DNA of 47,174 bases from Bacteroidota bacterium (GTDB lineage: Bacteria; Bacteroidota; Bacteroidia; Bacteroidales; B18-G4). The notes beneath the pieces are model-generated. The model searched no databases and was not told where the DNA came from. It worked only from the letters and a program-made list of their open reading frames with translations. The translations under genes and the position numbers were made by a program. The stretch lies in contig JABMQZ010000125.1 of the NCBI GenBank assembly GCA_013202965.1, forward strand, positions 1-47,174. Reading direction: 5' to 3'. Shown here piece by piece: positions 2,672-19,600 of this stretch. Each line of letters opens with the position of its first letter. Within the stretch, counting starts at the first letter, position 1.

Positions 2672-2687
2672 CGCGATCATTTTCTCC

Positions 2688-3317
2688 TTAATTCTCAGCA
2701 CTTATCATCTTCTCAGAGAAAAGTTTCTTAACGATCCTCTTCCCTAAAGTTTTCGTAACCTTATCAGGATTAAGCGGATCAAGACTTTTGCTTTGTCCTC
2801 CCCAGATGATCATATCCCCTTTGTTCTGATATAGATTAACATCAATGCGAAATGTTTTTCCGGGCCGCCTGTAATAATTTGGATCTATGATAATAGGCAG
2901 GTCGTGGTAATAATAAAATGAATAATATTCGTAATAATTATACGCATATGGCGGAAGCACCTCGGGAGCCATCACGTACATATCCGTACTTTCAGCATCT
3001 ACCATTTTCAAGATCAGCATGCCATCCACACCTGCACTATCAAGTTTTCTCTCAATGGTGCTATAAAAAAACATTGAATCATAGATTAAAAGCCCCTGGC
3101 CACTGACAGCGGAAATCCCCCTGTCGCGCATTGCTGTGAGCATGTCTTCCTCAAGTGATTGCCTCAGCTGCCTGTCTTTAAATTGTACGATGACCAGCAA
3201 TTTTTGCATGGGGTCTTTCAGAAAGCGTGTATCCTTCCAAATAGTTTTTACCTGGGCCATACCGGGTAAACTCAGCAGTACAATGAGCAGGCCAAGGATG
3301 AATGAAGTTTTTTTCAT
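2688..3317 (-). CDS. Secreted protein of unknown function
   Basis: About 209 aa starting at MKKTSF; the TTG two codons upstream in the ORF track is less likely. The first ~20 residues form a signal peptide ending near GMAQ. The mature part opens with VKTIWKDTRFLKDPMQKLLVIVQF and then LEEDMLTAMRDRGISA, which recalls small periplasmic or lipoprotein-like proteins that process stress or envelope signals. A Tyr-rich stretch (YAYNYYEYYSFYYYH) sits mid-protein. It lies about 17 bp downstream of the 904-aa anchored protein on the same strand and is probably co-transcribed with it. I do not recognise the family with confidence. Confidence 0.6.
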   Translation of the reverse strand: MKKTSFILGLLIVLLSLPGMAQVKTIWKDTRFLKDPMQKLLVIVQFKDRQLRQSLEEDMLTAMRDRGISAVSGQGLLIYDSMFFYSTIERKLDSAGVDGMLILKMVDAESTDMYVMAPEVLPPYAYNYYEYYSFYYYHDLPIIIDPNYYRRPGKTFRIDVNLYQNKGDMIIWGGQSKSLDPLNPDKVTKTLGKRIVKKLFSEKMISAEN

Positions 3318-3334
3318 GTTCAATATTTTATTTC

Positions 3335-6049
3335 TTACCTGAAATAATAATTATAGATCGTATTTCCTGATCCAACGATCATATTCAGTTGTCCGTCACG
3401 GTTCAGGCTGCCTATCAATATCCTGGTTTTTCCAATATGGTCGGGGGTACTGAGTAGATTTCCTGCACGGTCAAAAAGGTAAATTTTCCGGCTTTCCCCT
3501 GACACCACCCCTATCAGTTTCTCACTCAATGATACGGGAATGATCACCGGTGAAGAATTGATCTCATTTTCAAATTCCCATGAAAACATGACATTTTTAA
3601 AGCGGTCGAACACGCTCAGCTTGTTACCGTCAAGGAAAATAAAATCCTTTCCACCCTTATTATTGAAATCCTCATACAGGAAATAATGCGCCTTGCTGAA
3701 ATTCCCAAAATCAGTCTGCTCAATCTTTCCGTTTGAATGAATATAGGTCAGTTTTCCATTTTCGTCAGTGCTCAGAATGATACCTTTGCTGTTGGTTTCG
3801 TTCACATAGAACCTGGAATTTACCCCATTGACAATATTTTTTTTCAGATTGATCCTTGATCGACCACGCCGGTCAGTGATCTTTACATTTCCTTCTGCAT
3901 CTGCAATGATGATGTAATCCCTGGCTCCTTCCCTCAGGTGCTGGACAGGATTGGTAATTGCCCCTTTCGAGAGTGGATTTTTCCATCCTTCAATTCTCTT
4001 GCCCTTGATATCGAAATTGTACACCCTGTTATCCTCCAGGGCAATCAGGATGCGATAATCTTTATTATTGTCATAATCAAAAACAGCCAGCCCATTGGTC
4101 GCCTTCTTCTTCAGTTCTACCGGATATCCTTCCACATCCCTTCCGAAGAGATCGATAAGGTATACGCGGTTTTCCGTATTGAACAGGTACTGGATTTTCC
4201 CATTCCGGTAATAATCCACCGTATGTACGTCACTGATGACCTTTTCGCCAAGATTCAGCTTCCAGTCGATGTTGCCGTCATGATCAATGAGATACATATT
4301 GTTGAGTGTATCGAAAGCCACGATCTTCAGCCTGTTTGTCCGGTGGTCTTTTACAAAATAGGGTTGCCCGTGCACAGGGGCATCAAGATATGCTTTCCAG
4401 ATGGCAAGGTCTTCCTTTATGTAAGCGGGATTATGTTTGACGTAAATACTCGTAAAATACATATTATTCAGTGCCTTGAACTGAACGGCCAGAGCTTCGA
4501 AATTCTTTATCAGGCCGGGATTATTTTCGATAAAGGCGGCCAAAGGAATTGCCAGGATGTCCTTGAGTAAAGGCGTTGAATTTCTGATGTTAAAATAAAA
4601 GAAAATATTGGAACGGTCGGAGATATTATCAGTGAATTCCTTGAAGTTCTCGTTTTGTTCAAGCGTTTTTCCCGATAAAAGGATATTGATAAGGTTTTCA
4701 AGGCTTTGGCTGGAATTTGCAAAGACAATATAATCTTCGATCTGTGTATAATAATTTTCTTTGATTTCGGAAAATATCCGGCCATAGATCACAGGGAGCA
4801 GTTCAGGAATGGCAATCCTTCTAATGATATAATCCCTGTACTCAGAAGTGTATTGGCTTGAGGATAATTCCTTCAGCTTCCGTGCTGCCAATTCAATATC
4901 CTGTGCATGTATGGCCAGGAAAGTATTGGACTTCTGGTCCTGCAAATGCGGATTGATCAAGGCCAGGGCCATTTCGTTTCCAATCCATGCAGTCATATAT
5001 TCTTCGAGCCTGTCACCGTAGCGGCTCTTCATTTTACTCAGTTTACTTTCCCGGCCGGGGAAAATTCCATCATGCTGAAGGTATTCGGCATTTTTATGAT
5101 ACAGGCTTTCAAAATCGCTGAAACCAAAACTCAGAAGAAGAGAGGTATTATAAGGCAGGATGCGTGTAACTTCGATCTTTTGGGCTTGCTGCCGCCGGAA
5201 GATGCTCAGGAACTGGTTCATGGAGTCAATGGCCTCCGTATACCCATTCATGAGGAGTTCGTCCTTTTTAATGATAAGGTCTATTTCAGACCATGAGCCA
5301 AAAGCAGGTAAAATCTTTCTTTCCTTATAATAGGAGGAAGCGAAAATGTTACGTGCAATAGCAGGTATACGTCCAAAATTGACATAGATATTCGCATCTA
5401 CATTTTGTCCCGAGGTAAGGGCGACTTTTTGAAAGAGATGATCAAAAGGAAGTGATGATCTTGTATCGATACGCAAGGCACAATCCTCCAGTATAGCAGC
5501 TGTATTGCCTATCATGCACAGACCATAATCTATGCAATAATAGCAGGCGGTATCCCCAGCATCTGACAATAAATAGCCATCGATATCACGAAACGACATC
5601 TCTGTTTTCTGAAGTGCTCCTCCGTGCAATTTCCCGATTAGCAGATCAAGCTCATGCTCTGATGCAGCATAGGGCCATCGAAATAATATGCAATAAGCCA
5701 TCTGCCCGCCGTCTTCCAGTAATGCAAGGTAAATGTTTCCTTTTTCCAGTAATTCCATGTATCCCATTTCGGATAAAATGGAATCTGCACCCTGCAGGGC
5801 ATTCAGCAGGTTTCCAGCAGTTTCAGTCTTAAGGATATCAGCCCAGATATCATTTTTACCCGATAGTTCGCGTATGAGTGTCCCCGGCTCATTGATTTTG
5901 ATAAAAATCCCGGTGTTTTCAGGGATGGCATCCTCGGGGCTGAAAGGTGAACGGCCATACTTGTCATACAGGTACCAGGCACCGGCCAAAACCAGCACAG
6001 CAAGAATGATCAGCAATCCGTAATTAAATATCCTGAAATGTCGGGCCAT
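3335..6049 (-). CDS. Membrane-anchored protein with C-terminal beta-propeller-like repeats (DUF3352-like N-terminus)
   Basis: 904 aa from ATG at 6049; the track's TTG start adds three residues. A membrane helix at about residues 9-27 is followed by a large extracytoplasmic region opening IPENTGIFIKINEP, which resembles DUF3352-type proteins. From about residue 575 on, repeating blades of the kind D-x-x-N-N-x-x-Y...V-Y-x-x-D-x-x-G appear (MYLIDHDGNIDWKL, VYLIDLFGRDVEG, VYNFDIKGKRIEGW, IYLFDRAGNLL). These match a PQQ/FG-GAP-like propeller. No catalytic residues were found. A likely -7 box at 6070-6077 gives a short leader. It probably forms an operon with the small secreted protein downstream. 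The function is unknown; a surface or periplasmic scaffold is plausible. Confidence 0.6.
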   Translation of the reverse strand: MARHFRIFNYGLLIILAVLVLAGAWYLYDKYGRSPFSPEDAIPENTGIFIKINEPGTLIRELSGKNDIWADILKTETAGNLLNALQGADSILSEMGYMELLEKGNIYLALLEDGGQMAYCILFRWPYAASEHELDLLIGKLHGGALQKTEMSFRDIDGYLLSDAGDTACYYCIDYGLCMIGNTAAILEDCALRIDTRSSLPFDHLFQKVALTSGQNVDANIYVNFGRIPAIARNIFASSYYKERKILPAFGSWSEIDLIIKKDELLMNGYTEAIDSMNQFLSIFRRQQAQKIEVTRILPYNTSLLLSFGFSDFESLYHKNAEYLQHDGIFPGRESKLSKMKSRYGDRLEEYMTAWIGNEMALALINPHLQDQKSNTFLAIHAQDIELAARKLKELSSSQYTSEYRDYIIRRIAIPELLPVIYGRIFSEIKENYYTQIEDYIVFANSSQSLENLINILLSGKTLEQNENFKEFTDNISDRSNIFFYFNIRNSTPLLKDILAIPLAAFIENNPGLIKNFEALAVQFKALNNMYFTSIYVKHNPAYIKEDLAIWKAYLDAPVHGQPYFVKDHRTNRLKIVAFDTLNNMYLIDHDGNIDWKLNLGEKVISDVHTVDYYRNGKIQYLFNTENRVYLIDLFGRDVEGYPVELKKKATNGLAVFDYDNNKDYRILIALEDNRVYNFDIKGKRIEGWKNPLSKGAITNPVQHLREGARDYIIIADAEGNVKITDRRGRSRINLKKNIVNGVNSRFYVNETNSKGIILSTDENGKLTYIHSNGKIEQTDFGNFSKAHYFLYEDFNNKGGKDFIFLDGNKLSVFDRFKNVMFSWEFENEINSSPVIIPVSLSEKLIGVVSGESRKIYLFDRAGNLLSTPDHIGKTRILIGSLNRDGQLNMIVGSGNTIYNYYFR

Positions 6050-6307: not shown

Positions 6308-6326
6308 ATCTTTAAAGAACAATTCT
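6301..6326. terminator. 26-nt imperfect palindrome over the rnhB stop codon
   Basis: AGAATTG and CAATTCT arms enclose TCTTTAAAGA, with 12 of 13 possible pairs and one A/A mismatch. It is AT-rich and includes the rnhB stop codon. It might weaken transcription or protect the mRNA end, but it lacks a GC-rich stem, so a terminator role is uncertain. Confidence 0.3.
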
Positions 6327-6908
6327 AAGCTGTTCGTTCATATTGAAGCTTTTCCGGTGGTAGGGTGTAATACCGTATTGGTTTATTGCGTCCTTATGCT
6401 CACGTGTGGGATAGCCTTTATTGTTCGCCCACATATATTGCGGGTATTCATGATGGATCAATTCCATATATTCATCGCGCTGCGTTTTTGCAAGTACTGA
6501 GGCTGCAGCAATAGACAGGTATATTCCATCTCCCCTGATGATACAATGATGCGGAATATCCTTATAGGGGGTAAATCTGTTTCCGTCGACCAGCAGGAGC
6601 TCAGGAGGTGTGCTGAGTTTACTAATGGCGCGGTGCATGGCCAGGAATGAGGCATTCAGTATATTGATCTCATCGATTTCCAGATTATCAACCATTGCAA
6701 CAGCCCAGGCAATCGCTTCTCTTTCGATAATCACCCTCAATTTATTTCGCTGCTGTTCGCTAAGTTGCTTTGAGTCGTTGAGCATTTCATTCTTAAAGCC
6801 TTCAGGGAGGATGACGGCAGCAGCACAGACAGGCCCGGCAAAACATCCCCGCCCAGCCTCATCCAGACCGGCTTCCAGCAGCCCTTTTGTATGAAATCTT
6901 TCTAGCAT
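6312..6908 (-). CDS. rnhB: Ribonuclease HII
   Basis: 198 aa, the usual length for RNase HII, which nicks the RNA strand of RNA-DNA hybrids and starts ribonucleotide excision. The N-terminal metal site LDEAGRGCFAGPV (Asp-Glu) and the LLVDGN stretch with a further acidic residue are present. The ILNASFLAMHRAI helix and the SIAAASVLAKTQRD block are also typical. The ATG overlaps the end of the DUF6427 gene by 7 bp, so translation is probably coupled. It is the last gene of the glycosyltransferase-purD-DUF6427-rnhB series. Confidence 0.95.
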   Translation of the reverse strand: MLERFHTKGLLEAGLDEAGRGCFAGPVCAAAVILPEGFKNEMLNDSKQLSEQQRNKLRVIIEREAIAWAVAMVDNLEIDEINILNASFLAMHRAISKLSTPPELLLVDGNRFTPYKDIPHHCIIRGDGIYLSIAAASVLAKTQRDEYMELIHHEYPQYMWANNKGYPTREHKDAINQYGITPYHRKSFNMNEQLRIVL

Positions 6909-7894
6909 ACGGGAGAAAAGATATTATTGATCACTGTGGTCAGCAACAGCAATAAAAAGCAAATTTCTATTAATAACGACACCTTTCTGCGGTTAGCCAG
7001 GTATACTGAGATGATCATACTCGCCGGCACGGCAGCCAGCAAGGCAGTGTTGAGAAAATGCTCGCCCTCATATATAAGGGTGGAAAAAGAAAAGATGAAA
7101 AACCATGTGATAAGCAGGATCCTTTTCCTAAAACTGATATTCCATTCATTCAGATGAGATGCCAAATAAAATGATGCTGCCAGAAAAAGCAGTGCAGCCC
7201 ATCCCCACACCATATACTGCATATAATACGCCTTGATGTCAATGCCCGGAATGTTAGAAAACCAGTTTTCATAAGTACAATATTGCCCGGAAAGACTATC
7301 TGTCATAAAATAGGCCAGAAACAGGTACAGATAGACAGTAAAGATCCCTGAGAGGGAGACAAGAAATACCCGTATTGAAAAAGTACCGAATATGATAAAT
7401 GAAAGAAAAATGACAAGGAATATAAAAACCACAGGAAAATGAAACAGGGAAGCCATGGCAAGCAGGACTGCTGCGCTAAAAACATCTTTTGTCGGGTCTG
7501 CCTTGCCATAGGTGTTCAGTATCCTGTCAATGGCAAGGATGATAAATAATCCGGCACAAAGAACAGGGTTAAGCCCAAGCATAAGTGGCGATTGACTCAT
7601 CATGACAATAAATACGATGGCCGGAACCAGTGTATTTTTGGGTACAATTTCATGCCTGATGAGGATAAAGTTCAATATAAACGCTTCTGCAATAAGCAGG
7701 AACAGACCTGATATTGAAAATACCAGCACTTCGTCCGGCAGGGATTGCAGGAGCAACAGAAAGAGAGGGGATTCCGGACCTGCATTAATTTCAAGACAGG
7801 GAGCTGTATATGCGCAGATCCATAAAGATGCCGCAATGACAATCAAAAAAAGATATTGAAGATAGAAACTTGATTTAAAGAATCTGATCAGCAT
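6902..7894 (-). CDS. DUF6427-family polytopic membrane protein
   Basis: 330 aa with about eight to ten hydrophobic helices and few charged loops. The opening MLIRFFKSSFYLQYLFLIVIA and the helices around SPLMLGLNPVLCAGLFIILAID match a Bacteroidota-specific integral membrane family (DUF6427 as I recognise it) that often lies near purine or pyrimidine genes. No catalytic motif is visible. It starts 1 bp after the purD stop and overlaps rnhB by 7 bp, so all are probably on one mRNA. The function is unknown. Confidence 0.7.
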   Translation of the reverse strand: MLIRFFKSSFYLQYLFLIVIAASLWICAYTAPCLEINAGPESPLFLLLLQSLPDEVLVFSISGLFLLIAEAFILNFILIRHEIVPKNTLVPAIVFIVMMSQSPLMLGLNPVLCAGLFIILAIDRILNTYGKADPTKDVFSAAVLLAMASLFHFPVVFIFLVIFLSFIIFGTFSIRVFLVSLSGIFTVYLYLFLAYFMTDSLSGQYCTYENWFSNIPGIDIKAYYMQYMVWGWAALLFLAASFYLASHLNEWNISFRKRILLITWFFIFSFSTLIYEGEHFLNTALLAAVPASMIISVYLANRRKVSLLIEICFLLLLLTTVINNIFSPVC

Positions 7895-7895
7895 C

Positions 7896-9182
7896 TTACA
7901 AGGATTTCAGGTCAAAGCCAAGATCCTTCCGGAAATACTTTCCTTCAAAATCTATCACAGAGGCATTCACATATGATTGTCTGAGGGCTTCCTTCATATT
8001 TTCCCCAAAAGAGGTCACGGCTATGACGCGTCCCCCGCTGGTGGAAATTACACCCGTCTTTTCATCCCGGCTTGTTCCGGCATGAAAGATGATGCTGCCT
8101 TCAACATCATCTATTCCATGGATATCCTTTCCCTTTTCATATGCTCCGGGATAACCTCCAGACACCAGCATGATGGCCGTTGCGAAGCGTGGATCAGTGA
8201 GCAAATGCTCCTGAGCAAGGCTGCCATCTCCAACTGCAATGAAGTGCTGCAGCAGATCGGATTTTATCCTGGGAATAACAGATTCTGCCTCCGGGTCGCC
8301 CATCCTGACATTATATTCGATCACAAAAGGATCGCCCCCGACATTGATCAGTCCGAAAAATATGAATCCCTTATACTCGAGCCCTTCATCGATAAGGCCA
8401 CGCATTGTCGGAGCAATAATCTGATGCTCAACTTTCTGCATAAACTCAGGCCCGGCAAAAGGCACAGGAGAGATAGATCCCATTCCGCCGGTGTTCAGGC
8501 CGGTATCTCCCTCCCCGATTCGTTTGTAATCTTTAGCGGAGGGCAGTATCTTATAAGATTTACCATCGGTAAGCACAAAACATGAGATCTCAATCCCTTT
8601 TAAAAACTCTTCAATCACCACTTTGCGGCTGGCTTTGCCAAATTTGGCATCCCTGAGCATGGCGGTAAGTTCCTGCCCGGCTTCTTCAATAGTGCTGCAG
8701 ATCAGGACTCCTTTTCCTGCCGCCAGGCCATCGGCTTTCAACACATAAGGTGGCTTCATGCTTTTCAGAAATTCCAGGCCTTTCCCCAGCTCATCGGAAG
8801 TAAATGTAGCATAAGCTGCGGTAGGAATATCATACTTTTTCATGAACTCCTTGGCAAAATCTTTGCTTCCTTCCAACATGGCAGCCGCTTTTACAGGTCC
8901 GATCACCATAACTTTTGAAAGTTCGGGATCCGTTTTAAAAAAATCGTGAATTCCTTCTACCAGTGGCACTTCGGGGCCAACCACCAGCATACCGACATCT
9001 TCATTTAACACGAAAGCCTTCACTTCAGAATAATTTCCTGTATCAATATCTACATTCTTACCATGCAGTGATGTACCGGCATTGCCAGGTGCAATAAAAA
9101 GATGGCCAAGGCCTGCGCTTTGTGAAAGTTTCCATGCAAAGGCATGCTCACGGCCACCGGAGCCTAGAATTAGAACATTCAT
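7896..9182 (-). CDS. purD: Phosphoribosylamine-glycine ligase
   Basis: 428 aa, normal for PurD, which joins phosphoribosylamine and glycine with ATP in step two of purine synthesis. The N-terminal [19 protein letters not shown], the ATP-grasp segment [13 protein letters not shown], the [16 protein letters not shown] strand and [15 protein letters not shown] are all diagnostic. The C-terminal VRMGDPEAE motif carries metal ligands. It lies 4 bp after the glycosyltransferase gene and 1 bp before the DUF6427 gene, so it appears to be transcribed from the promoter upstream of the glycosyltransferase. Confidence 0.97.
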
Positions 9183-9186
9183 AAAC

Positions 9187-10320
9187 TTATTTTTTATCGT
9201 TCAACACTTTTTCAACGACCTCCCAGAGCTGGTCCGCAGAATTTTGCCAGGTAAACATTTTTCGTCTTTCCCTCCCCTTTTCTATCATCCTTTTCCTGAG
9301 TTCAGGATCGAAAGCCACCTGTTCAAGGCCTTTTGCAATGGATTTCACCGAGAAAGGATCTACCAGTATTGCGGCATCGCCTGCCACCTCCGGCATGGCT
9401 GTTATATTGGACGTAATAACGGGGGTATCGCAGTAATAGGATTCAATGATAGGAATGCCGAAGCCTTCGAAATAGCTGACATATGTCATGGCCAGTGCAG
9501 CGGCCACAGCCCTGTGCAGGTCCTCTGCAGACATCCTTCCACTAAAGATCACCTCATGAGCATGCCGCATCCCTTCATAGGCCTGCCTGATATCTTTGGT
9601 CCAGTACTTTTTATTTCCCACGACGAGCAATTTGATGTCGGACCGGTGCTGCTCCTTGAAATAATCAAATGCCTTAAACAAGCGGGCAAGGTTCTTACGC
9701 GGATGCAAAGCTCCCACAAAAATAAAATACGGACAGCCATCACTCAGGGCATTTCTTGTTTCTTCCTTCGCAGCATCCCCTATCGGACAAAATCTTTCAT
9801 TGGCTCCATTATAAACCACGCTGATCTTCCCTGCCGGGATGTCGTAACGGTTCATAATATCCTTTTTTGAATAATCTGAAACGGTAACGATCTGCCGGGC
9901 TTTACGGGCATAGCGTGGAAAGAAATAACGGTAATATTTTCTTTCCAGAAAAGGAAGATCTTTCGGGTACTGCTCGAAATTCAGGTCATGAAATATGGGA
10001 ATGGATTCCACTTTGGTTTTCAATGACAGATAAGCATCAGGCGAGAGAAATAAATCGGCATTGATCTTTTTCAGCACCCTTGGCACCGACCACTCAAACC
10101 ACAGGTAATAAAGAAATGGGTGTCGTGCCTGTGGTTTTACCACGATAGGAGTTATGTTATCGGAAAAGATGAAACGTTCATCCCATTTGCGATCGAAAAT
10201 AAAAAAGAATTCATGCTCAGGGTGTGCAAGCGTAATCCTCTTAAGGGTTTCATAGGCAACCCATCCGATACCTTCTAATTTGTCGGGGAGGAGCAATCTG
10301 GTATTTACAGCTATCTTCAA
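9187..10320 (-). CDS. Glycosyltransferase family 4 (GT-B fold)
   Basis: 377 aa. The N-terminal [12 protein letters not shown] opening and the C-terminal GT4 signature ([23 protein letters not shown], then [14 protein letters not shown] with its acidic residue) identify a retaining GT-B glycosyltransferase that transfers a sugar from a nucleotide sugar. [12 protein letters not shown] is the usual first strand of the donor domain. The start codon is TTG; the protein start MKIAVN is so characteristic that TTG is accepted. It is divergent from the flippase gene (166 bp) and heads the series with purD. It probably adds a sugar to the polysaccharide made by the adjacent wzx-wzz-wzy genes; that link is inferred. 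Confidence 0.9.
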
Positions 10321-10376
10321 TAATATAGTTTTAATGAGTCCGTTCTATCTGCTGTCAAATGAAGCATAAATTATTA

Positions 10377-10384
10377 CAAAATTA
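10377..10384 (-). promoter_or_regulatory. Candidate -7 box (TAATTTTG) for the glycosyltransferase-purD series
   Basis: A perfect TAnnTTTG match on the minus strand, about 57 bp upstream of the TTG start. It lies only 20 bp from the opposing box at 10405-10412. No clear -33 TTTG was seen. Confidence 0.4.
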
Positions 10385-10404
10385 CGATGCTGGTATTTTT
10401 ATGA

Positions 10405-10412
10405 TAATTTTG
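10405..10412 (+). promoter_or_regulatory. Candidate -7 box (TAATTTTG) for the flippase gene
   Basis: A perfect TAnnTTTG match about 75 bp upstream of the ATG at 10487, with no clear -33 element. An AGGAG stretch lies immediately before the start codon. Confidence 0.4.
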
Positions 10413-10486
10413 TACAAATTTAAAGTTTTTTCGATTAGGCTGTGTGACAATTGTAATTACATTTGAATGCCTATTAAGCAGGAGAG

Positions 10487-11935
10487 ATGCAGCGAAAATT
10501 TATTACCAATCTGATCTTATTACTTTCCCTGAACCTGCTGATAAAGCCGTTCTGGATCCTGGGCATTGACCGTTCGGTTCAAAACCTGGTAGGTTTGGAG
10601 ACATATGGGTTCTACTTCGTAGTCTTTAATTTCTCCTTTCTTTTCAACATCCTCCTTGATCTTGGGATCACCAATTTCAATAACCGCAATATAGCCCAGC
10701 ACCGCCATTTGCTGAACAAGCACTTCTCACGGATCATTGTGGTGCGCTTTATGCTGGCCATACTGTACCTCATCGTTACCTTCACCGCTGCCCTGATCTA
10801 CGGTTTCAATGCGGAACAGTTGTACCTGCTTGGATGGATCGCGTTCAACCAGTTTCTGCTATCACTTATTCTATACCTGCGCTCGAACATCTCGGGATTA
10901 CTCCTCCTCCGGACCGACAGCCTCATCTCTGTGCTTGACAGATTGCTCATGATACTGTTTTGTGCTGTATTGCTCTGGGGGAATGTTACCAGCCAGGCAT
11001 TCAGGATTGAGTGGTTTGTTTATGCACAGACAGCAGCCTATCTTATTACCGCCCTGATCGCATTCTCTATTGTAATGGTGAAGGCAGAATTCAAGCGGGT
11101 TTACTGGAACTGGCCATTTTTCGTGATGATCCTAAAGCAAAGCCTGCCTTTTGCCACCCTGGTACTCATGATGTCGTTTTATAATCGTATCGACCCCGTC
11201 CTTATTAACAAGATCCTTCCTGATCCTGTTGGGGCGATACAAGCAGGCATTTATGCCCAGGCGTTCCGGCTTTTCGATGCAGCAAACCAGATTGCATTCT
11301 TATTTGCTGTATTGCTGTTGCCGATATTCTCGAATATGATCAAAAACAAAAAGCCGATTGTACATATTGTAAAACTGGCTTTCTCCCTCCTCTTTACGAT
11401 CTCTGTAACCGTAGCTTTAAGTTCGTTTTTCTACGCTTCGGAAATCATGACAATGCTGTATCCGGGTGCAAATATCGAATCTTCCCGGATCCTGAGCATA
11501 TTGATGTTTGGCTTTATTGCTGTATCAGGAATATATGTGTTCGGCACACTTCTGACTGCCAATGGCAGCCTGAAACAATTAAATATCATTGCCGGATCGG
11601 CTATAGCCCTGAACCTTATTTTTAATCTTATTTTAATACCACAAATACAGGCAGTTGGTTCTGCTTATGCCAGTTTGTCTGCACAAGCTATCTCAGTGAT
11701 CCTGCAGGTGCTCATCGTACAGAGGATTTTCAAATTCAGGATAAACTACAATTACTTGCTTTCTCTGATTGCGTTTGCCACCGGGGTCACCCTGGCCGGA
11801 TATTTCACCAACTCCTTTGCATACAACTGGATCATTAACCTGGCCCTTATGTTGTCAATTTCATTTCTCCTGGCATGGACACTGGGGCTGCTTAGCATCA
11901 GAGGGTTTATAAACATCATTAAGAATAAGGAATAG
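10487..11935 (+). CDS. Polysaccharide flippase (Wzx / MATE-like)
   Basis: 482 aa with about 12-14 hydrophobic segments spread over its whole length. The opening RKFITNLILLLSLNLLIKPFWILGIDRSVQNLVG, the GLETYGFYFVVFNFSFLFNILLDLGITNFNNRNIAQ block and the mid-protein ASFYNRIDPVLINKIL-type segment are those of lipid-linked oligosaccharide flippases. The protein moves undecaprenyl-linked repeat units across the inner membrane. It is followed by wzz-like and wzy-like genes in the same direction, completing a Wzx/Wzy-type export set. Confidence 0.85.
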   Translation: MQRKFITNLILLLSLNLLIKPFWILGIDRSVQNLVGLETYGFYFVVFNFSFLFNILLDLGITNFNNRNIAQHRHLLNKHFSRIIVVRFMLAILYLIVTFTAALIYGFNAEQLYLLGWIAFNQFLLSLILYLRSNISGLLLLRTDSLISVLDRLLMILFCAVLLWGNVTSQAFRIEWFVYAQTAAYLITALIAFSIVMVKAEFKRVYWNWPFFVMILKQSLPFATLVLMMSFYNRIDPVLINKILPDPVGAIQAGIYAQAFRLFDAANQIAFLFAVLLLPIFSNMIKNKKPIVHIVKLAFSLLFTISVTVALSSFFYASEIMTMLYPGANIESSRILSILMFGFIAVSGIYVFGTLLTANGSLKQLNIIAGSAIALNLIFNLILIPQIQAVGSAYASLSAQAISVILQVLIVQRIFKFRINYNYLLSLIAFATGVTLAGYFTNSFAYNWIINLALMLSISFLLAWTLGLLSIRGFINIIKNKE

Positions 11936-11974
11936 CGAATCAAGGGATAAAATCGTGAAATGCTTATCATTCAA

Positions 11975-12005
11975 TTGGTGCATTGAAATAAATTTCCTAA
12001 TTTTG
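11975..12005 (+). promoter_or_regulatory. Candidate promoter of the double-Wzz gene
   Basis: TTG at 11975-11977 and TAATTTTG at 11998-12005 are separated by 20 bp, the expected Bacteroidota spacing. The box lies about 30 bp upstream of the ATG at 12036, which suggests a short leader. Confidence 0.55.
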
Positions 12006-12035
12006 ACCCCTTAATTAAATTTTAGAACTAACAAG

Positions 12036-14267
12036 ATGGTAAGTAAGTTTACAGAAAACGGCGACTTTGACTCCTCTGGTTTCATTTATTTCCTCTATTA
12101 CTGGAGGAAACCGCTGATCATCATTACCCTGCTTGCGATAGCTGCTTCCATATTATTTTCCTCACCACTTTTCATAAATCCCAAATACAAGTCTACGGTC
12201 ATTCTTTTCCCTGTAGCCACGAATTCAATTTCTAAGGCGCTGATCAGTCAGCAATCAGGGATCAAGGAAGATGTGCTTGGTTTTGGTGAAGAAGAACAGG
12301 CAGAGCAGATGTTGCAGATACTGAGTTCTAACAAGATCAGGGACAGGGTAGTGCAAAAGTTCAATCTGATGGAACATTACAGGATCAACCCGGAGTCGGA
12401 GTATAAGAATACCCGCCTGTACAGGGAGTTTGTAAGTAATGTGTCTTTCAGGCGTACTGAGTATATGGCAGTGAAAATTTCCGTTCTTGATGAGGACCCG
12501 CAAATGGCGGCCGATATCGCCAATACCATTGCCGAACTCCTGGATTCAACAAAAACCCTGATGCAGAAAGAAAGGGCGATGAGGGCTTTTAATATCGTTG
12601 AAAAAGAATATATTAGTCTTCAGGCTGAAATCACGGGGATCGTCGATTCCCTGAGAGTGATCGGGAAGCTGGGTGTAAATGATTATGAATCGCAAGCGGA
12701 AGTGATTAACCAGCAATTGGCAATAGCTCTTCGCAACGGCGACATGGTTGCAGTACGTGCCCTTGAGCAAAGACTTGAAGTGCTTGCTGAATATGGCGGG
12801 ACCTTTCTCTCCCTGAAAAATGCCCTGGAATTTAAGTCTGAACAGCTAAGCCTTCTCAAGGCAAAATACCAGGAAGCCAAAGTAGACGCCGAAGAGGAGC
12901 TGCCACAAAAATTCATTGTAAGCTCGGCCTACAAGGCAGAACAGAAATCATACCCGATCCGCTGGATCATTGTTGTGATTTCGACACTATCAGCTTTGTT
13001 ACTGGCCATACTGGTGATCATCATCATTGAGAATTTTGCAAAAATCAAAAAAAAAAGCCTTAAGCTAAAACTATGGTCATATGATAATCTGGCCGTCTTC
13101 GACCGGGAGAAACCAACTGAAGAAAGAAAAGAAAAGAAAGTGACAGTACAGGAAGAAAAAGTTCCTGAACCCGTGATAGAAAAAAAACCTGAAGAGGAAA
13201 CTCCGCCGGTTCACAAGCCTGAAGCGCTTAAAGAAATAATAAAAGAAGAAAATAAAAAAACATCTGAATCATCACAAGAAAAATCATATAATAAGTCTGA
13301 GATGAAAACGTATTACGATAATTCCAGCCTGTTGGGCATAATCTTTAAATGGTGGATACATATTGCTGTTATTACTGTCGTCGCACTGCTGCTTGGCGTA
13401 CTGTTTTCCAGCCCGATGTTCATTACTCCCAAGTATAAATCTTATGCTGTTGTATATCCTGCCAATATTTCACCTTATTCCGATGAGAGCGAAACAGAGC
13501 AGATGTTACAACTGCTGCATTCAAAAGATATCAAGGACAGCGTGATCAAACATTTCGATCTTGCCGCACACTATGGGGTTGACAGCAATTTCAAATACTT
13601 TTATTCTACCATTTATTATATGTTCGGGCAAAATGTGAGCATCAACAAGACACCTTACGAATCGGTTGATATCACTGTGCTGGATAAAGATCCTCTTATG
13701 GCCAACAACATGGTGAATGCCATCATCGATTATTATAACAAGAAAGTAAGGCAGATCCATAACGACAAATATCTTGAAGTGATCAGGATGTATGATGCCA
13801 TTATAGAAAAAAAACAGGCACATATTGATTCATTAAAACACCGTCTCTACATTCTTGGCACCGAATACGGACTTCTTGATTATAATGCCCAGGCAGTTGA
13901 AATCACCAAAGGCTATCTGCGCACTGTCATGGGAGCTACTTCCACCAGCATCAACCAACGCGAAGTGATGAGGCTCAAGGCCAACATTGAAGAGCATGGC
14001 GGGGAACTTATTGAAATCGTTGAATCGATCAAGAATGAAGCACAGAACTTCTCCATGTTGAAAGTGGATTATGAGAATACGGTTCGTTTTTATACGGATG
14101 AATTGACTTACGCCAATGTCATCACTCCGCCTTATCCTTCTGACAAAAAGGCTTATCCGGTTCGTTGGCTGATCGTTGTATTCACAATGATCGCAACGTT
14201 TTTTCTAAGCATTATCATCATCCTTATTATTGAGCGATACCGACACCAATTCCGGATAAAGAAGTAA
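12036..14267 (+). CDS. Tandem-fused chain-length determinant with two complete Wzz units
   Basis: 743 aa, about twice a usual Wzz. Unit 1 has membrane helices near residues 29-50 and 308-332. Unit 2 has helices near 438-463 and 708-733. Each opens with LFSSPxFIxPKYKS after its first helix, continues with EQMLQxLxSxxIxDxVxxxF, then xxVLDxDPxMAxxxxNxI. Each ends with a YPxRWxIVV second helix. The two periplasmic parts are clearly homologous but diverged. A cytoplasmic linker of about 80 residues, rich in Glu, Lys and Pro, joins them. There is no BY-kinase Walker motif and no tyrosine-rich tail. Wzz proteins set polysaccharide length by oligomerising in the inner membrane. A fused pair would give a mixed ring of fixed 1:1 composition; that is inference. 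It sits between the flippase and polymerase genes. Confidence 0.85.
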   Translation: MVSKFTENGDFDSSGFIYFLYYWRKPLIIITLLAIAASILFSSPLFINPKYKSTVILFPVATNSISKALISQQSGIKEDVLGFGEEEQAEQMLQILSSNKIRDRVVQKFNLMEHYRINPESEYKNTRLYREFVSNVSFRRTEYMAVKISVLDEDPQMAADIANTIAELLDSTKTLMQKERAMRAFNIVEKEYISLQAEITGIVDSLRVIGKLGVNDYESQAEVINQQLAIALRNGDMVAVRALEQRLEVLAEYGGTFLSLKNALEFKSEQLSLLKAKYQEAKVDAEEELPQKFIVSSAYKAEQKSYPIRWIIVVISTLSALLLAILVIIIIENFAKIKKKSLKLKLWSYDNLAVFDREKPTEERKEKKVTVQEEKVPEPVIEKKPEEETPPVHKPEALKEIIKEENKKTSESSQEKSYNKSEMKTYYDNSSLLGIIFKWWIHIAVITVVALLLGVLFSSPMFITPKYKSYAVVYPANISPYSDESETEQMLQLLHSKDIKDSVIKHFDLAAHYGVDSNFKYFYSTIYYMFGQNVSINKTPYESVDITVLDKDPLMANNMVNAIIDYYNKKVRQIHNDKYLEVIRMYDAIIEKKQAHIDSLKHRLYILGTEYGLLDYNAQAVEITKGYLRTVMGATSTSINQREVMRLKANIEEHGGELIEIVESIKNEAQNFSMLKVDYENTVRFYTDELTYANVITPPYPSDKKAYPVRWLIVVFTMIATFFLSIIIILIIERYRHQFRIKK

Positions 14268-14292
14268 ACCTAATCCAAGCGTACTCTTGAAT

Positions 14293-15726
14293 ATGATCGA
14301 GAAATATAAGGTCTATATAGTCTATGCGGTAAGTCTTGCATTTATTGTATTGAACTGTTACCTGATCATACTTGACAAGTATTATGGACTGCTTGCTCCA
14401 TTGCTGCTGATATTCCTGTTTCTCTACATTTTCTCACTCGACAAGCTCATCCTGCTGATCACTTTTCTGACACCGATTGCTATCAACTACAAGGATCCGG
14501 ATCTTGGGGTTGGGATATCACTTCCCACCGAACCTCTTCTACTGGGGGTACTGGTGGTTTTTATTCTTAAATTGTTTTATGATGGTGGCTTTAACAGGAA
14601 GATCGTCAGTCATCCGGTAAGCATTGCCATCATCATTAATCTGATATGGCTGGGGTTAACCATGTTCACAAGTGAAATCCCGCTGGTATCTGTAAAGTTT
14701 CTTATTGCAAGGCTGTGGTTTATTATTCCATTTTATTTCATCGGCATACTGGTTTTCAAGAAAGTCAAAAACATCAAACTATTCAATTGGCTGTATATCG
14801 TTGCGCTGCTGATGATTATTATTTACACCATATTCAACCATGCTGGTTTTGGCTTCGACAAGCCTTCCAGCAATATGGTGATGAAGCCCTTTTACAATGA
14901 CCATACTGCATACGGAGCAGTGATCGCAATGTTTTTACCTTTCTTTCTCGGTTTCAGTATCAGCAAGAATTACAACAATTCACAACGTCTGGCGAATTTC
15001 ATAGTCTTATTCATTTTGATCCTTGGAATTATTTTTTCTTACAGCCGGGCAGCGTGGATCAGTGTGGCCTTTGCCCTGATGGTGTATGGCATCATTGCCA
15101 TGAAAATAAAATTCAGGTGGGTCATGGCCGGTTTCTTTGTTCTTGCAGGCCTGTTCTACATATTCTCCTTCCAACTAATAGACCGTTTGGAGCGGAACAA
15201 GCAGGATTCCTCCACCAATTTCACAGAGCACATCCAGTCTATGTCGAATATTTCATCGGATGCATCAAACCTTGAACGCATCAACAGGTGGAATTCTGCC
15301 CTCAGGCTGTTCGAGGAACGGCCTTTCTGGGGATGGGGACCGGGAACTTACCAGTTTGTTTATGCTCCCTTCCAAAGGTCGAAAGAAAAAACAATTATCA
15401 GCACCAATGCCGGTGATATGGGGAATGCTCACAGCGAATATATAGGCCCCCTCTCGGAATCCGGGATATTGGGTATGCTGACATTTATCGCTATCGTGAT
15501 CGCGGTTTCCATTACCGGCCTGAGAGTCTATAAACGTGCTGAATCCAAAGAGGTGAAACTGATCAGTCTGGTGATACTATTGGGGCTGATGTCATATTTT
15601 GCCCATGGCCTGCTCAATAATTTTCTCGATACCGACAAGGCATCGGTTCCCTTCTGGGGCTTTATTGGGATACTGGTATCGTTAGACCTATATCATACCA
15701 GGAAAAAGGAAGAGGTTTCTGAATAA
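14293..15726 (+). CDS. O-antigen polymerase/ligase-type membrane protein (Wzy/WaaL family)
   Basis: About 477 aa from ATG 14293; the track's TTG start adds two residues. Roughly ten to twelve membrane helices flank a large periplasmic loop containing RAAWISVAFALM, LERINRWNSALRLFEERPFWGWGPGTYQ and GNAHSEYIGPLSESGILG. This is the conserved O-antigen polymerase/ligase signature, in which an Arg and the His-Ser-Glu cluster are functionally important. It lies 25 bp after the double Wzz, completing the flippase-regulator-polymerase trio. Polymerase and ligase cannot be told apart from sequence alone. Confidence 0.85.
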   Translation: MIEKYKVYIVYAVSLAFIVLNCYLIILDKYYGLLAPLLLIFLFLYIFSLDKLILLITFLTPIAINYKDPDLGVGISLPTEPLLLGVLVVFILKLFYDGGFNRKIVSHPVSIAIIINLIWLGLTMFTSEIPLVSVKFLIARLWFIIPFYFIGILVFKKVKNIKLFNWLYIVALLMIIIYTIFNHAGFGFDKPSSNMVMKPFYNDHTAYGAVIAMFLPFFLGFSISKNYNNSQRLANFIVLFILILGIIFSYSRAAWISVAFALMVYGIIAMKIKFRWVMAGFFVLAGLFYIFSFQLIDRLERNKQDSSTNFTEHIQSMSNISSDASNLERINRWNSALRLFEERPFWGWGPGTYQFVYAPFQRSKEKTIISTNAGDMGNAHSEYIGPLSESGILGMLTFIAIVIAVSITGLRVYKRAESKEVKLISLVILLGLMSYFAHGLLNNFLDTDKASVPFWGFIGILVSLDLYHTRKKEEVSE

Positions 15727-15733
15727 ACAGGGT

Positions 15734-15781
15734 TGAAATCAGAAATCAGATACCAGAAATCAGATACCAGAAATCAGAATT
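15734..15781. repeat. Heptamer array AGAAATC / AGATACC
   Basis: Units are TGAAATC, AGAAATC, AGATACC, AGAAATC, AGATACC, AGAAATC and the terminal AGAATT. It starts 7 bp after the stop of the polymerase gene and fills the convergent gap. It shares 29 identical consecutive bases with the array at 40091. Confidence 0.85.
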
Positions 15782-15786
15782 TTCTT

Positions 15787-16722
15787 TTAAAGCTTGCGAA
15801 CTTTTTCCCAAATTTCGGGTAGTTTCTTTATTAATGCCATCTGCTGCCAGGCTTTGCGGACTTCCATGGCAGGTGCTCCGAAGTATACTTTTCCGCCTTC
15901 CAGGGATTTATCGGCACCGGAAGTTGCCAGTATTACAGCCCCTTCTCCAATTACCAAATCCTTGTCGATAACGACCTTCGCCCATATGATCACATTATCT
16001 TCAATCCTGGTAACACCGGCAATAGCAGTATATGCACCGATCAGGCAAAAACGGCCGATCTGTGTATCATGGCCTACCTGTACGTGGTTGTCGAATTTTG
16101 TATAATCGCCTACACGTGTATCTCCGGTAACGCCCTTATCAATTGAAGTACATGCACCGATCTCCACATGATTGCCTATGATCACGCGACCCACTGAGTG
16201 AAACTTCAGGGTTTCGCCTTTTCTTTTCTGGAAGTAAAAGCCATCAGCACCAATCACAGCCCCGGAGTGGATCACGACATGATCTCCGAGTTCACAATGA
16301 TCATAGATGGAAGCATTGGCATGGATCAGGCAGTTCTTCCCGATCTTCACATGATTTCCGACAAAAGCACCGGGCTGGATCACGGTACCCTCCCCAATCT
16401 CCGCTGTGGGGCTCAGCATCCCGCCAGCCGGTTCAAAAGGGCGGAAATGATTGCTCAGCTTATTAAAATCTACAAAAGGATCATCAGAAATGATCAGGCC
16501 TTTTCCTTCCGGGCATTCCACCTCTTTGTTGATGAGGATGGTAGTAGCATCAGAATTCAGCACTTTGTCGTAGTATTTCGGATGGTCTACAAAGGACAGG
16601 TCACCGGCTTCAACCATATGCAGCTCGTTCAGGCCGCTGATCACATGATCGGGATCGCCAATAAATTTTGCATTTAGAAATTCGCTGACCTGCTTCAGGC
16701 TTTGTGCTGCTGGAAATTTCAT
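15787..16722 (-). CDS. LpxD-like left-handed beta-helix acyltransferase (second copy)
   Basis: 311 aa with an N-terminal uridine-binding-like domain (about residues 1-100). A hexapeptide left-handed beta-helix follows (AEIGEGTVIQPGAFVGNHVKIG and onward). QVGHDTQIG retains the histidine that acts as catalytic base in LpxD. It is 32 residues shorter than the other LpxD in the window and clearly diverged from it. It stands 80 bp downstream of efp on the same strand and is a common companion of the lipid A block in Bacteroidota. It may acylate a UDP-glucosamine derivative, or another amino sugar; the substrate is not evident. Confidence 0.8.
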   Translation of the reverse strand: MKFPAAQSLKQVSEFLNAKFIGDPDHVISGLNELHMVEAGDLSFVDHPKYYDKVLNSDATTILINKEVECPEGKGLIISDDPFVDFNKLSNHFRPFEPAGGMLSPTAEIGEGTVIQPGAFVGNHVKIGKNCLIHANASIYDHCELGDHVVIHSGAVIGADGFYFQKRKGETLKFHSVGRVIIGNHVEIGACTSIDKGVTGDTRVGDYTKFDNHVQVGHDTQIGRFCLIGAYTAIAGVTRIEDNVIIWAKVVIDKDLVIGEGAVILATSGADKSLEGGKVYFGAPAMEVRKAWQQMALIKKLPEIWEKVRKL

Positions 16723-16802
16723 GATTTACGTTTTTCTCCCATTGTCCGGATTGCTAAATAAGCTGCAAACAGGATGGATGTAATGTTTATAAGAACTTTG
16801 TA

Positions 16803-17369
16803 CTATGCTTTGACCCTCTCGGAATATTGCCCGGTCCTGGTATCGACTTTGATAAGATCACCTGTGTTGATAAACAGCGGAACCTTTACCTTGGCGCCTG
16901 TCTCAACAGTAGCTTCCTTCATCACATTGGTAGCTGTATTCCCTCTTTCCCCCGGCTCAGTGTAGGTGATTTCCAGAACAACATATGCCGGCATTTCACA
17001 GGCGATCGGAGATTCGGTTTCAGTATGGTAAGAGATCTCCACTATCTGACCTTCTTTAAGGAATTCGGAAGCAGAAATGAGTTCTTCCCCGATGAAAGTC
17101 TGTTCAAAGGTTTCCTGATTCATAAAATGATAGAATTCACCATCATTATAGAGATACTGATAAGAACGTCTTTCAACCCTTTGCACATTGATTTTCATTC
17201 CGGCAACAAAAGTATTTGGCAGCACCTTGCCGGTTTTAACATTTTTAAGTTTCGTCCTGACAAAGGCTGCACCTTTTCCGGGATTTACATGCTGGAATTC
17301 AATAATGGAATATAGTTGTCCGTTAAACTCTATAACCAATCCGTTTCTAAAATCTGCTGTTGTTGCCAT
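16803..17369 (-). CDS. efp: Translation elongation factor P
   Basis: 188 aa, the standard three-beta-barrel EF-P, which relieves ribosome stalling at polyproline stretches. The loop NPGKGAAFVR places Lys32 at the tip position of E. coli Lys34, so this is the Lys-type and not the Arg/EarP type. No epmA, epmB or earP gene lies nearby. The C-terminal domain ends GDLIKVDTRTGQYSERV, which is diagnostic. It starts 21 bp after lpxA and is probably co-transcribed with the lipid A genes. Confidence 0.97.
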   Translation of the reverse strand: MATTADFRNGLVIEFNGQLYSIIEFQHVNPGKGAAFVRTKLKNVKTGKVLPNTFVAGMKINVQRVERRSYQYLYNDGEFYHFMNQETFEQTFIGEELISASEFLKEGQIVEISYHTETESPIACEMPAYVVLEITYTEPGERGNTATNVMKEATVETGAKVKVPLFINTGDLIKVDTRTGQYSERVKA

Positions 17370-17390
17370 CTTCTTAAATTATATTTATGA

Positions 17391-18185
17391 TCAGTCCTGT
17401 TTCTGGAATTTACTGTATCCCTTCATGATACCCCTGGTGGATTTGGAGATAAAAGACAGGATCTCATCCCTTTCAGGTGTTGCAGGCACATCGGCTTCAA
17501 TGATGTTCACTGCCTGTGAGACATTGAGTCCTTTCAGGTAGATCATTCTGTAAATATTCTGTACATCGTTGATCTGTTCATTTGTGAAGCCTCTTCTTCT
17601 CAATCCGATGGAATTCACACCAACATATGACAATGGTTCCCTCGCCCCTTTGGTATAGGGAGGGACATCTTTTCTTATAAGTGCACCACCGGAGATCATG
17701 CTGTGTTTTCCGATCTGAACAAACTGATGAATGGCTGCCAGTCCGCCAATAATGGCGTAATCGTCAATGAATATATGACCGGCCAGGGTAGCTGCATTGG
17801 CAAGGATCACATTATCGCCAATGATGCAATCATGCGCCACATGAACATAAGCCATCAGCAGGCAATTATTCCCGACAACGGTTTCATAATTTGCTTTGGT
17901 ACCACGATTGATCGTCACAAACTCCCTTATGGTGGTATTATTCCCGATCTTAACAATGGTTTCTTCCCCATCGAACTTCAGGTCCTGGGGGATGGCAGCG
18001 ATCACGGCACCGGGAAAGATCCGGCAATTTTTGCCGATACGTGCACCTTCCATAATGGTGACATGTGCACCTATCCAGGTGCCTCCTTCAATTACCACAT
18101 TTTTCTCAATGTTAACAAAAGGTTCAATGACAACCGTGTTGGCCACTTTGGCCTGGGGATGTACATATGCTAGAGGTTGATTCAT
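17391..18185 (-). CDS. lpxA: UDP-N-acetylglucosamine acyltransferase
   Basis: 264 aa, the usual LpxA length. It performs the first step of lipid A synthesis, transfer of a 3-hydroxyacyl chain from ACP to UDP-GlcNAc. The N-terminal beta-helix repeats are clear, and VHVAHDCIIGDN contains the catalytic His. The IREFVTINRGT and GGLAAIHQFVQIG blocks are typical. The four-base overlap (ATGA) with the upstream lpxC-fabZ gene suggests coupled translation. Confidence 0.97.
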   Translation of the reverse strand: MNQPLAYVHPQAKVANTVVIEPFVNIEKNVVIEGGTWIGAHVTIMEGARIGKNCRIFPGAVIAAIPQDLKFDGEETIVKIGNNTTIREFVTINRGTKANYETVVGNNCLLMAYVHVAHDCIIGDNVILANAATLAGHIFIDDYAIIGGLAAIHQFVQIGKHSMISGGALIRKDVPPYTKGAREPLSYVGVNSIGLRRRGFTNEQINDVQNIYRMIYLKGLNVSQAVNIIEADVPATPERDEILSFISKSTRGIMKGYSKFQKQD

Positions 18186-19600
18186 TTTCCTGGGTTGTTT
18201 GTTGTTTCTTCTATTCTTGTTATAGATGCCATCATTTTTGCTTCCGTCACAACCTTACCATTGACATAAGCAATGCCATGCATATACCCGATTCCCCTGC
18301 TGACAGGTTTGATCAACTTGCTGTAAAAGACAATAGTATCACCGGGTTCAACCCTCTTCCTGAACTTAGCCTCCTCGATTTTTAAAAAGAGTGTCAAATA
18401 ATTTTCCGGGTCAGGAACGGCCGTCAAAAGAAGGATGCCACTTGTCTGGGCCATGGCTTCAATCTGAATTACGCCGGGCATCACCGGATCTCCGGGAAAA
18501 TGTCCTACAAAAAAAGGTTCATTCATTGTAACATTCTTCACCCCTACAATATAGTCTTCACCCATCTCCAGTATCTTATCAACAAAAAGAAATGGTGGAC
18601 GGTGCGGCAGGATGTTAAGGATGTCGTTAATGTCATACAAGGGCTTCTTGTTTACATCAATCGAAAATGATTTATTCATCTTTTTTCTGTTGTTTATATG
18701 TTTTTTAATGAGTTTTCCCAATTCCACATTCGCTGCATGACCCGGTCTGCGGGCAATGATATGGGCCTTGAGTGGTTTACCAAGCAATGCAAGGTCACCA
18801 AGAAGATCAAGTAGTTTATGACGTGCAGGTTCGTTGCGGTGATGCAATTCAAGGTTGTTCAGTATGCCTTCCTGCAGCACCTCCATCCTTGGTTTTTTGA
18901 ACAGGTCGGCAAGGCGGTCGAGTTCCTCCTGTGAAATAATCCTGTTCACAAAAACAATGGCGTTGCTCAAATCTCCACCCTTGATGAGATTATTGCTCAA
19001 AAGGTATTCCAACTCATGTAGAAAGACAAAGGTGCGGGAATCTGAGATTTCTTCTTTGAAATCCTTTATATCCTCAAGCAGTGCATATTGTGTTCCCAAT
19101 ACCCTGGTCTCGAAATTGATCATAACAGAAACCTTGAAGGTATCGCTTGGAATGGCAATCAGCTCAACTTTGTTTTCCTCGTCAGTATAAATGATATTGG
19201 AATCGATCTCAATGTACTCCCGAATTGCATCCTGCTCTTCAATACCTGATTGGTTCAAAGCATCGACAAATGACTTCGAACTTCCGTCCATGATGGGGGG
19301 CTCTCCCTGGTTAAGGTCGATTAAAAGGTTATCGATGCCCAGGCCGGTAACGGCGGCAAGCACATGTTCAGAGGTGTATATCATGGCTCCGTTCTGTTGG
19401 AGCGAAGTTCCCCTGGACGTATCCACCACGTTATCAAGGCTGGCATCAATGACAGGCTGCCCTTCCAGATCAAGCCTTCTGAATTTTAATCCGTGCCCGG
19501 CAGGTGCAGGGTTAAAAGTAAGTGTAACATTATTGCCGGTATGCAGGCCTGCGCCTTTGACAGATGTTAGCTTTTTTATGGTTCTTTGTTTTTCGCTCAT
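18182..19600 (-). CDS. Bifunctional LpxC deacetylase / FabZ dehydratase
   Basis: 472 aa. The N-terminal ~300 residues are LpxC, the zinc deacetylase that commits sugar to lipid A. It shows SVKGAGLHTGNNVTLTF, the TSEHVLAAVTGLGIDN zinc-binding histidine, and RHKLLDLLGDLALLG with the other zinc ligands. The C-terminal ~150 residues are FabZ, with ILPHRPPFLFVDKI and the catalytic HFPGDPVMPGVIQIEAMAQ (His and Glu). The fusion is a Bacteroidota hallmark and ties lipid A and fatty-acid synthesis together. The gene overlaps lpxA by four bases. A possible internal promoter lies at 19632-19639. Confidence 0.97.
   Translation of the reverse strand: MSEKQRTIKKLTSVKGAGLHTGNNVTLTFNPAPAGHGLKFRRLDLEGQPVIDASLDNVVDTSRGTSLQQNGAMIYTSEHVLAAVTGLGIDNLLIDLNQGEPPIMDGSSKSFVDALNQSGIEEQDAIREYIEIDSNIIYTDEENKVELIAIPSDTFKVSVMINFETRVLGTQYALLEDIKDFKEEISDSRTFVFLHELEYLLSNNLIKGGDLSNAIVFVNRIISQEELDRLADLFKKPRMEVLQEGILNNLELHHRNEPARHKLLDLLGDLALLGKPLKAHIIARRPGHAANVELGKLIKKHINNRKKMNKSFSIDVNKKPLYDINDILNILPHRPPFLFVDKILEMGEDYIVGVKNVTMNEPFFVGHFPGDPVMPGVIQIEAMAQTSGILLLTAVPDPENYLTLFLKIEEAKFRKRVEPGDTIVFYSKLIKPVSRGIGYMHGIAYVNGKVVTEAKMMASITRIEETTNNPGK

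Follow-up and report, generated by a model that had tools for sequence, protein, structure and literature searches.

A single uninterrupted open reading frame in a contig from a Bacteroidota bacterium (Bacteroidales, B18-G4; GenBank GCA_013202965.1, contig JABMQZ010000125.1; 47,174 nucleotides, here called the window) joins two Wzz polysaccharide co-polymerase (PCP) units in one chain. The fused gene, wzzN-wzzC, lies on the forward strand at 12036..14267 (ATG at 12036, stop at 14265-14267) and encodes 743 residues, departing from the one-unit-per-chain plan of the Wzz/PCP-1 class. Hydropathy places hydrophobic helices near residues 23-48, 305-339, 430-466 and 706-736, and these four helices are consistent with two Wzz units and a linker on the cytoplasmic side. 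The N-type unit comprises approximately residues 1-340 (12036..13055, forward strand), with the first two helices flanking a periplasmic domain, as delimited by a profile match to residues 3-340, hydropathy and a structural model. The C-type unit, delimited by hydropathy, profile and models, spans approximately residues 423-739 (13302..14252, forward strand), with the last two helices flanking its periplasmic domain. Between them runs a charged linker (13032..13328, forward strand), predicted from the model and the profile spacing to be disordered and cytoplasmic, with residues 333-431 below a predicted local distance difference test (pLDDT) score of 50; 82 residues separate the two profile matches, and 46% of these are D, E, K or R.

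The two halves are homologous to each other. Comparison of residues 1-365 with 366-743 by blastp gave 28% identity over 321 residues (E 1e-47), and the local alignment score of 433 compares with a shuffled mean of 38.8 (sd 6.0). The periplasmic parts alone scored 255 against a shuffled mean of 35.8 (sd 5.9), so the shared membrane helices do not explain the likeness. Alignment of the N-type and C-type profiles with hhalign reached a probability of 100 (E 3e-73). In a whole-genome search with the Pfam Wzz family (PF02706) the two halves scored 33.9 and 27.6 bits, both above the cut-off of 25.5, although the N half searched alone fell slightly below it at 24.0; at E 0.01 the family matched 47 of 48 N-type and 41 of 48 C-type relatives. 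No kinase family matched the gene product in family searches, and we rejected a kinase-bearing PCP-2 identity. An earlier note, made from the letters of this sequence, had described a whole Wzz layout in each half, a charged linker on the cytoplasmic side and the lack of a tyrosine kinase domain, all of which these searches bear out. The matching blocks it had pointed to are also present in both halves: an SSPxFIxPKYKS-type block (FSSPLFINPKYKS / FSSPMFITPKYKS) and YPIRW / YPVRW. Its proviso that the halves might prove non-homologous fell with the pairwise alignment.

Structural models predict the PCP fold for each half. AlphaFold2, given alignment rows made of fused chains and of in-frame pairs read through the stop (in the alignment rows only), modeled the full chain with matching successions of elements in the two halves, both of them confident, and with residues 333-431 disordered. 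The C half alone reached a pLDDT of 91.3 and a predicted template modeling score (pTM) of 0.79, and a Foldseek search of the PDB with it returned KpsE (template modeling score 0.70 by target), WzzE (0.59) and Wzc; the full-chain structure returned the same families. A single-sequence search of the PDB gave no match, and KpsE was the best sequence-profile match of the C-type there (E 1.6e-6). This arrangement, a periplasmic alpha/beta domain that contains long helices and is bracketed by two membrane helices, is that of the Wzz/PCP-1 class.

The two halves represent two old types. In a FastTree tree of 221 units, where the N-type set consists of N halves, first genes and almost all singles, one branch with a support of 100 splits all 131 N-type from all 90 C-type units. 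We rejected a recent duplication within the gene, as the N/C split is older than all sampled lineages. Both types keep a common core (for example S42/S458, P59/P475, E90/E488, Q94/Q492, T141/T539, D152/D550, P307/P708 and W310/W711), and each has fixed residues of its own, R140, M144, R180, A298 and E302 in the N-type versus K538, E542, K578, P699 and D703 in the C-type. An 18-residue insert (residues 61-78; 12216..12269, forward strand) is found by type comparison in N-type units only, where S66 is kept in 99% and L69 in 97%; model confidence is low at 63-83. The fully supported split and the conserved residues of each type therefore indicate that selection keeps both. In the model, helix 217-234 of the N half runs almost directly into helix 237-286, whereas in the C half 13 residues (628-640) form a loop ahead of helix 641-687. 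Judged from the order of elements, this difference would fall at the tip of the periplasmic domain, in the place taken in WzzE by the L4 loop.

Relatives place the fusion in a wider setting. Of 149 genomes sampled from the class, 128 matched, many with both units adjoining. Among 132 classified loci, 74 hold two adjacent genes, 43 one gene and 15 a fused gene, the last answering the suggestion in the earlier note that the fusion be sought in other wzx-wzz-wzy loci. The order is N-type then C-type in all 74 unfused pairs, at a site upstream of wzy; the gap between the genes has a median of 28 nt, and in five pairs they overlap by 4 nt. The fusion is intact in three species of the genus, including G002 (93% identity, with the layout of locus L034) and G003 (82%, as L036), while in a fourth (G001) a contig end cuts the gene. 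Fusions also occur in seven further families of the order, counted by the classification codes assigned to the genomes, and their linkers of 40 to 100 residues are mutually dissimilar. The pair is unfused in the other genera of the window's own family (G004-G008). Two genomes of another family that share a genus code differ, G209 having the fusion and G115 an unfused pair.

Fusion appears, from these phylogenies, to have arisen from the old pair at least five separate times. On concatenated N+C trees the fused state changed 6 times in a quick tree (89 loci) and 7 times in a careful tree (50 loci), and five of the 7 changes are forced by strong branches; some splits of fused genes are still compatible with parsimony alone. 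A single origin followed by inheritance was rejected, since none of 200 bootstrap trees showed it and constraining the fused rows to one clade cost 413 log units (approximately unbiased test, p 3.6e-32). The deep branches are unfused pairs, and fusion is therefore the derived state. The earlier note was right to single out the fusion but could not see what lies beneath it: an old and widespread heteropair of adjacent genes, of which the fusion is a recurrent derived state.

Several loci show variants of this arrangement. In L010 of G020 (1492-3693) and L165 of G296 (2011-4194), wzzN is closed by a TGA, yet no further stop interrupts the frame over the approximately 70 codons that lead into wzzC. 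These codons encode similar protein sequence, and the 28 nt after the wzzN stop are identical between the two genomes. A single stop may have split a fused gene here, or the stop may be read through; as to regulated read-through, a small hairpin after the stop was no more stable than in shuffled sequences. In L149 (G081:C5) a third Wzz copy, of the C-type, lies behind wzy at 7297-8907. A proline-rich, linker-like stretch precedes it, and the fused gene seems to have been partly duplicated in tandem. In eight C-only loci (L170-L177) the C-type gene stands directly upstream of wzy, a loss reciprocal to that in the common N-only loci.

The fused gene lies between a wzx-type gene and a PF04932 gene. 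Family matches identify a wzx-type flippase gene upstream (PF01943; 10487..11935, forward strand), kept there in many relatives, and a Wzy/WaaL-family gene directly downstream (PF04932; 14287..15726, forward strand). In 129 of the 131 loci that could be tested, the gene immediately after wzz is wzy-type, so the product of 14287..15726 is more likely Wzy; the genome carries two further PF04932 genes. The link to an ABC transporter (KpsMT) that marks PCP-3 was not found, the neighbors being wzx and the Wzy-family gene. On the reverse strand, family matches and synteny in relatives identify a GT4-type glycosyltransferase gene that is part of the conserved neighborhood (9187..10320) and, beyond the PF04932 gene, lpxD-like, efp, lpxA and lpxC-like genes (15787..19600). 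The adjoining lipid A genes make lipopolysaccharide the likely destination of the polymer. The whole block (window 6312-19600: rnhB, DUF6427-like, purD, GT4 / wzx, wzz, wzy / lpxD, efp, lpxA, lpxC) recurs across Bacteroidia relatives. Elsewhere the genome encodes a further protein (G000:C49:303-578, L002), Wzc-like and bearing the beginning of a kinase domain, which marks a PCP-2 system alongside.

Together these observations lead us to favor, as the probable reading, a heteromeric PCP-1 co-polymerase: a single ring around Wzy, formed jointly by N and C units in a 1:1 ratio. An ancestral duplication would have produced N-type and C-type Wzz from adjacent genes upstream of wzy, and both would assemble in equal numbers in the inner membrane as one bell-shaped ring, most likely of 4 N and 4 C units around a single Wzy, which would set polymer length. 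In this genus, fusion of the two genes through a flexible cytoplasmic linker would guarantee equal amounts and joint assembly. We infer the co-assembly, the ring size, the contact with Wzy and the effect on chain length. Repeated fusion of the same two neighbors is classical evidence of joint action, and the repeated fusion of these two paralogues in the same order therefore supports co-assembly. One ring with both types is also the simplest reading, given that Wzz acts as a ring that encircles Wzy (PMC10030265). WzzE of E. coli is a C4 octamer with two alternating conformations and an asymmetric unit of two adjacent subunits (PMC10397196), and eight WzzE enclose one WzyE (PMC10030265); by analogy, the covalent N-C chain would match that asymmetric unit in topology.

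Several points weigh against this reading or limit it. The full-chain model has a pTM of 0.38, so the packing of the halves cannot be read from it, and solved Wzz rings vary in size, with 8, 9 and other numbers of subunits (PMC13161533, PMC10030265). PF04932 covers ligases too, and the downstream gene could be one. A flexible linker of 40-100 residues fixes a 1:1 stoichiometry but not strict neighborhood; it could join non-neighbors, and alternation is not forced. As its reach across a ring would exceed what is needed, the linker would secure the ratio and joint assembly rather than strict alternation. Of the earlier note's reading, the diverged homologous pair and the real fusion are supported, whereas imposed alternation, two chain lengths and two bound partners stay conjectural. 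Finally, 43 N-only and 8 C-only loci exist, from which either type can apparently serve Wzy alone, and the pair may have begun, and in places may still act, as two alternative regulators.

This last possibility is the strongest competitor: separate N and C homo-rings would act on one Wzy and each give its own chain length, much as in Shigella, Salmonella and Pseudomonas with their paired Wzz proteins, and fusion would do no more than tie their expression together. Each type does stand alone beside wzy in single-type loci, and two Wzz proteins per cell are known in Gram-negative bacteria (PMC3684754). However, a covalent chain makes separate homo-rings awkward, as every ring would be tethered to others, and the repeated fusion of precisely these paralogues is more expected with joint assembly. 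The fixed, tight order in 74 of 74 pairs also counts against it. We regard two alternative regulators as rather unlikely overall, and as a live rival for the unfused pairs. Less plausible still, and in our view improbable, is that only one half works as a PCP, with the other in a structural or regulatory role, such as a ring spacer or a piece that docks another protein by way of the linker. The 160-residue cytoplasmic tail of Porphyromonas WzzP, with no known role (PMC3684754), speaks for it, but each type has many invariant residues specific to it, either can occur alone, and the linkers are not conserved across lineages, which argues against a shared docking site. An assembly or annotation artefact joining two genes, the error that the earlier note feared and for which the 284 contigs of the fragmented source assembly might speak, has a negligible chance and was ruled out, as independent assemblies of two congeneric species show the same open, in-frame fusion, and so do those from seven further families, where the linkers are unrelated.

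For the mixed ring, a stronger version is conceivable, although we hold it with less than even confidence: many Bacteroidia would possess an obligate two-component Wzz ring with N and C units alternating 4+4, the conformational alternation of WzzE being written into two genes, which at least five lineages have fused permanently. How Wzz rings count length and what role the two-fold alternation plays are unsettled, and a natural, repeatedly evolved covalent pair allows a direct test: its subunit ratio is given from the start, and one position of the supposed alternation can be altered without touching the other. With an equal ratio, odd rings such as the FepE nonamer (PMC13161533) would be excluded. 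Our findings also indicate that a two-component co-polymerase is widespread in Bacteroidia, where standard annotation lists two ordinary Wzz genes. We found no published account of a tandem or two-domain Wzz in the open-access literature, a search that did not cover subscription papers.

Among known systems, each half resembles Wzz/PCP-1 (WzzB, WzzE, FepE; PF02706): two membrane helices enclose a periplasmic domain that contains a long helical hairpin, there is no kinase, and the gene lies beside wzy. In known members each chain has a single unit and the rings are homomeric, whereas this protein has two units of two old paralogous types. The E. coli WzzE octamer (PDB 8BHW, PMC10397196) shares the fold of each half and is built of subunit pairs in two alternating states; there, however, one protein adopts both states, while here two sequences are encoded, and identity is low (10-13%). 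Wzc (PCP-2a) and KpsE (PCP-3) have the periplasmic fold in common with the halves, but Wzc has a tyrosine kinase domain and KpsE works with an ABC transporter, and the fused protein has neither feature. WzzP of Porphyromonas gingivalis (PGN_2005, PMC3684754), the Wzz of a related bacterium, likewise has an unusual cytoplasmic extension after helix 2; it is a single Wzz with a long C-terminal tail, an identity we rejected for the fused protein, in which the extension leads into a second Wzz unit. Shigella WzzB and WzzpHS2 are also two different Wzz proteins per cell acting on one polymerase, but their genes are separate and they set two chain lengths, whereas the N-type and C-type genes are adjacent, fixed in order and repeatedly fused.
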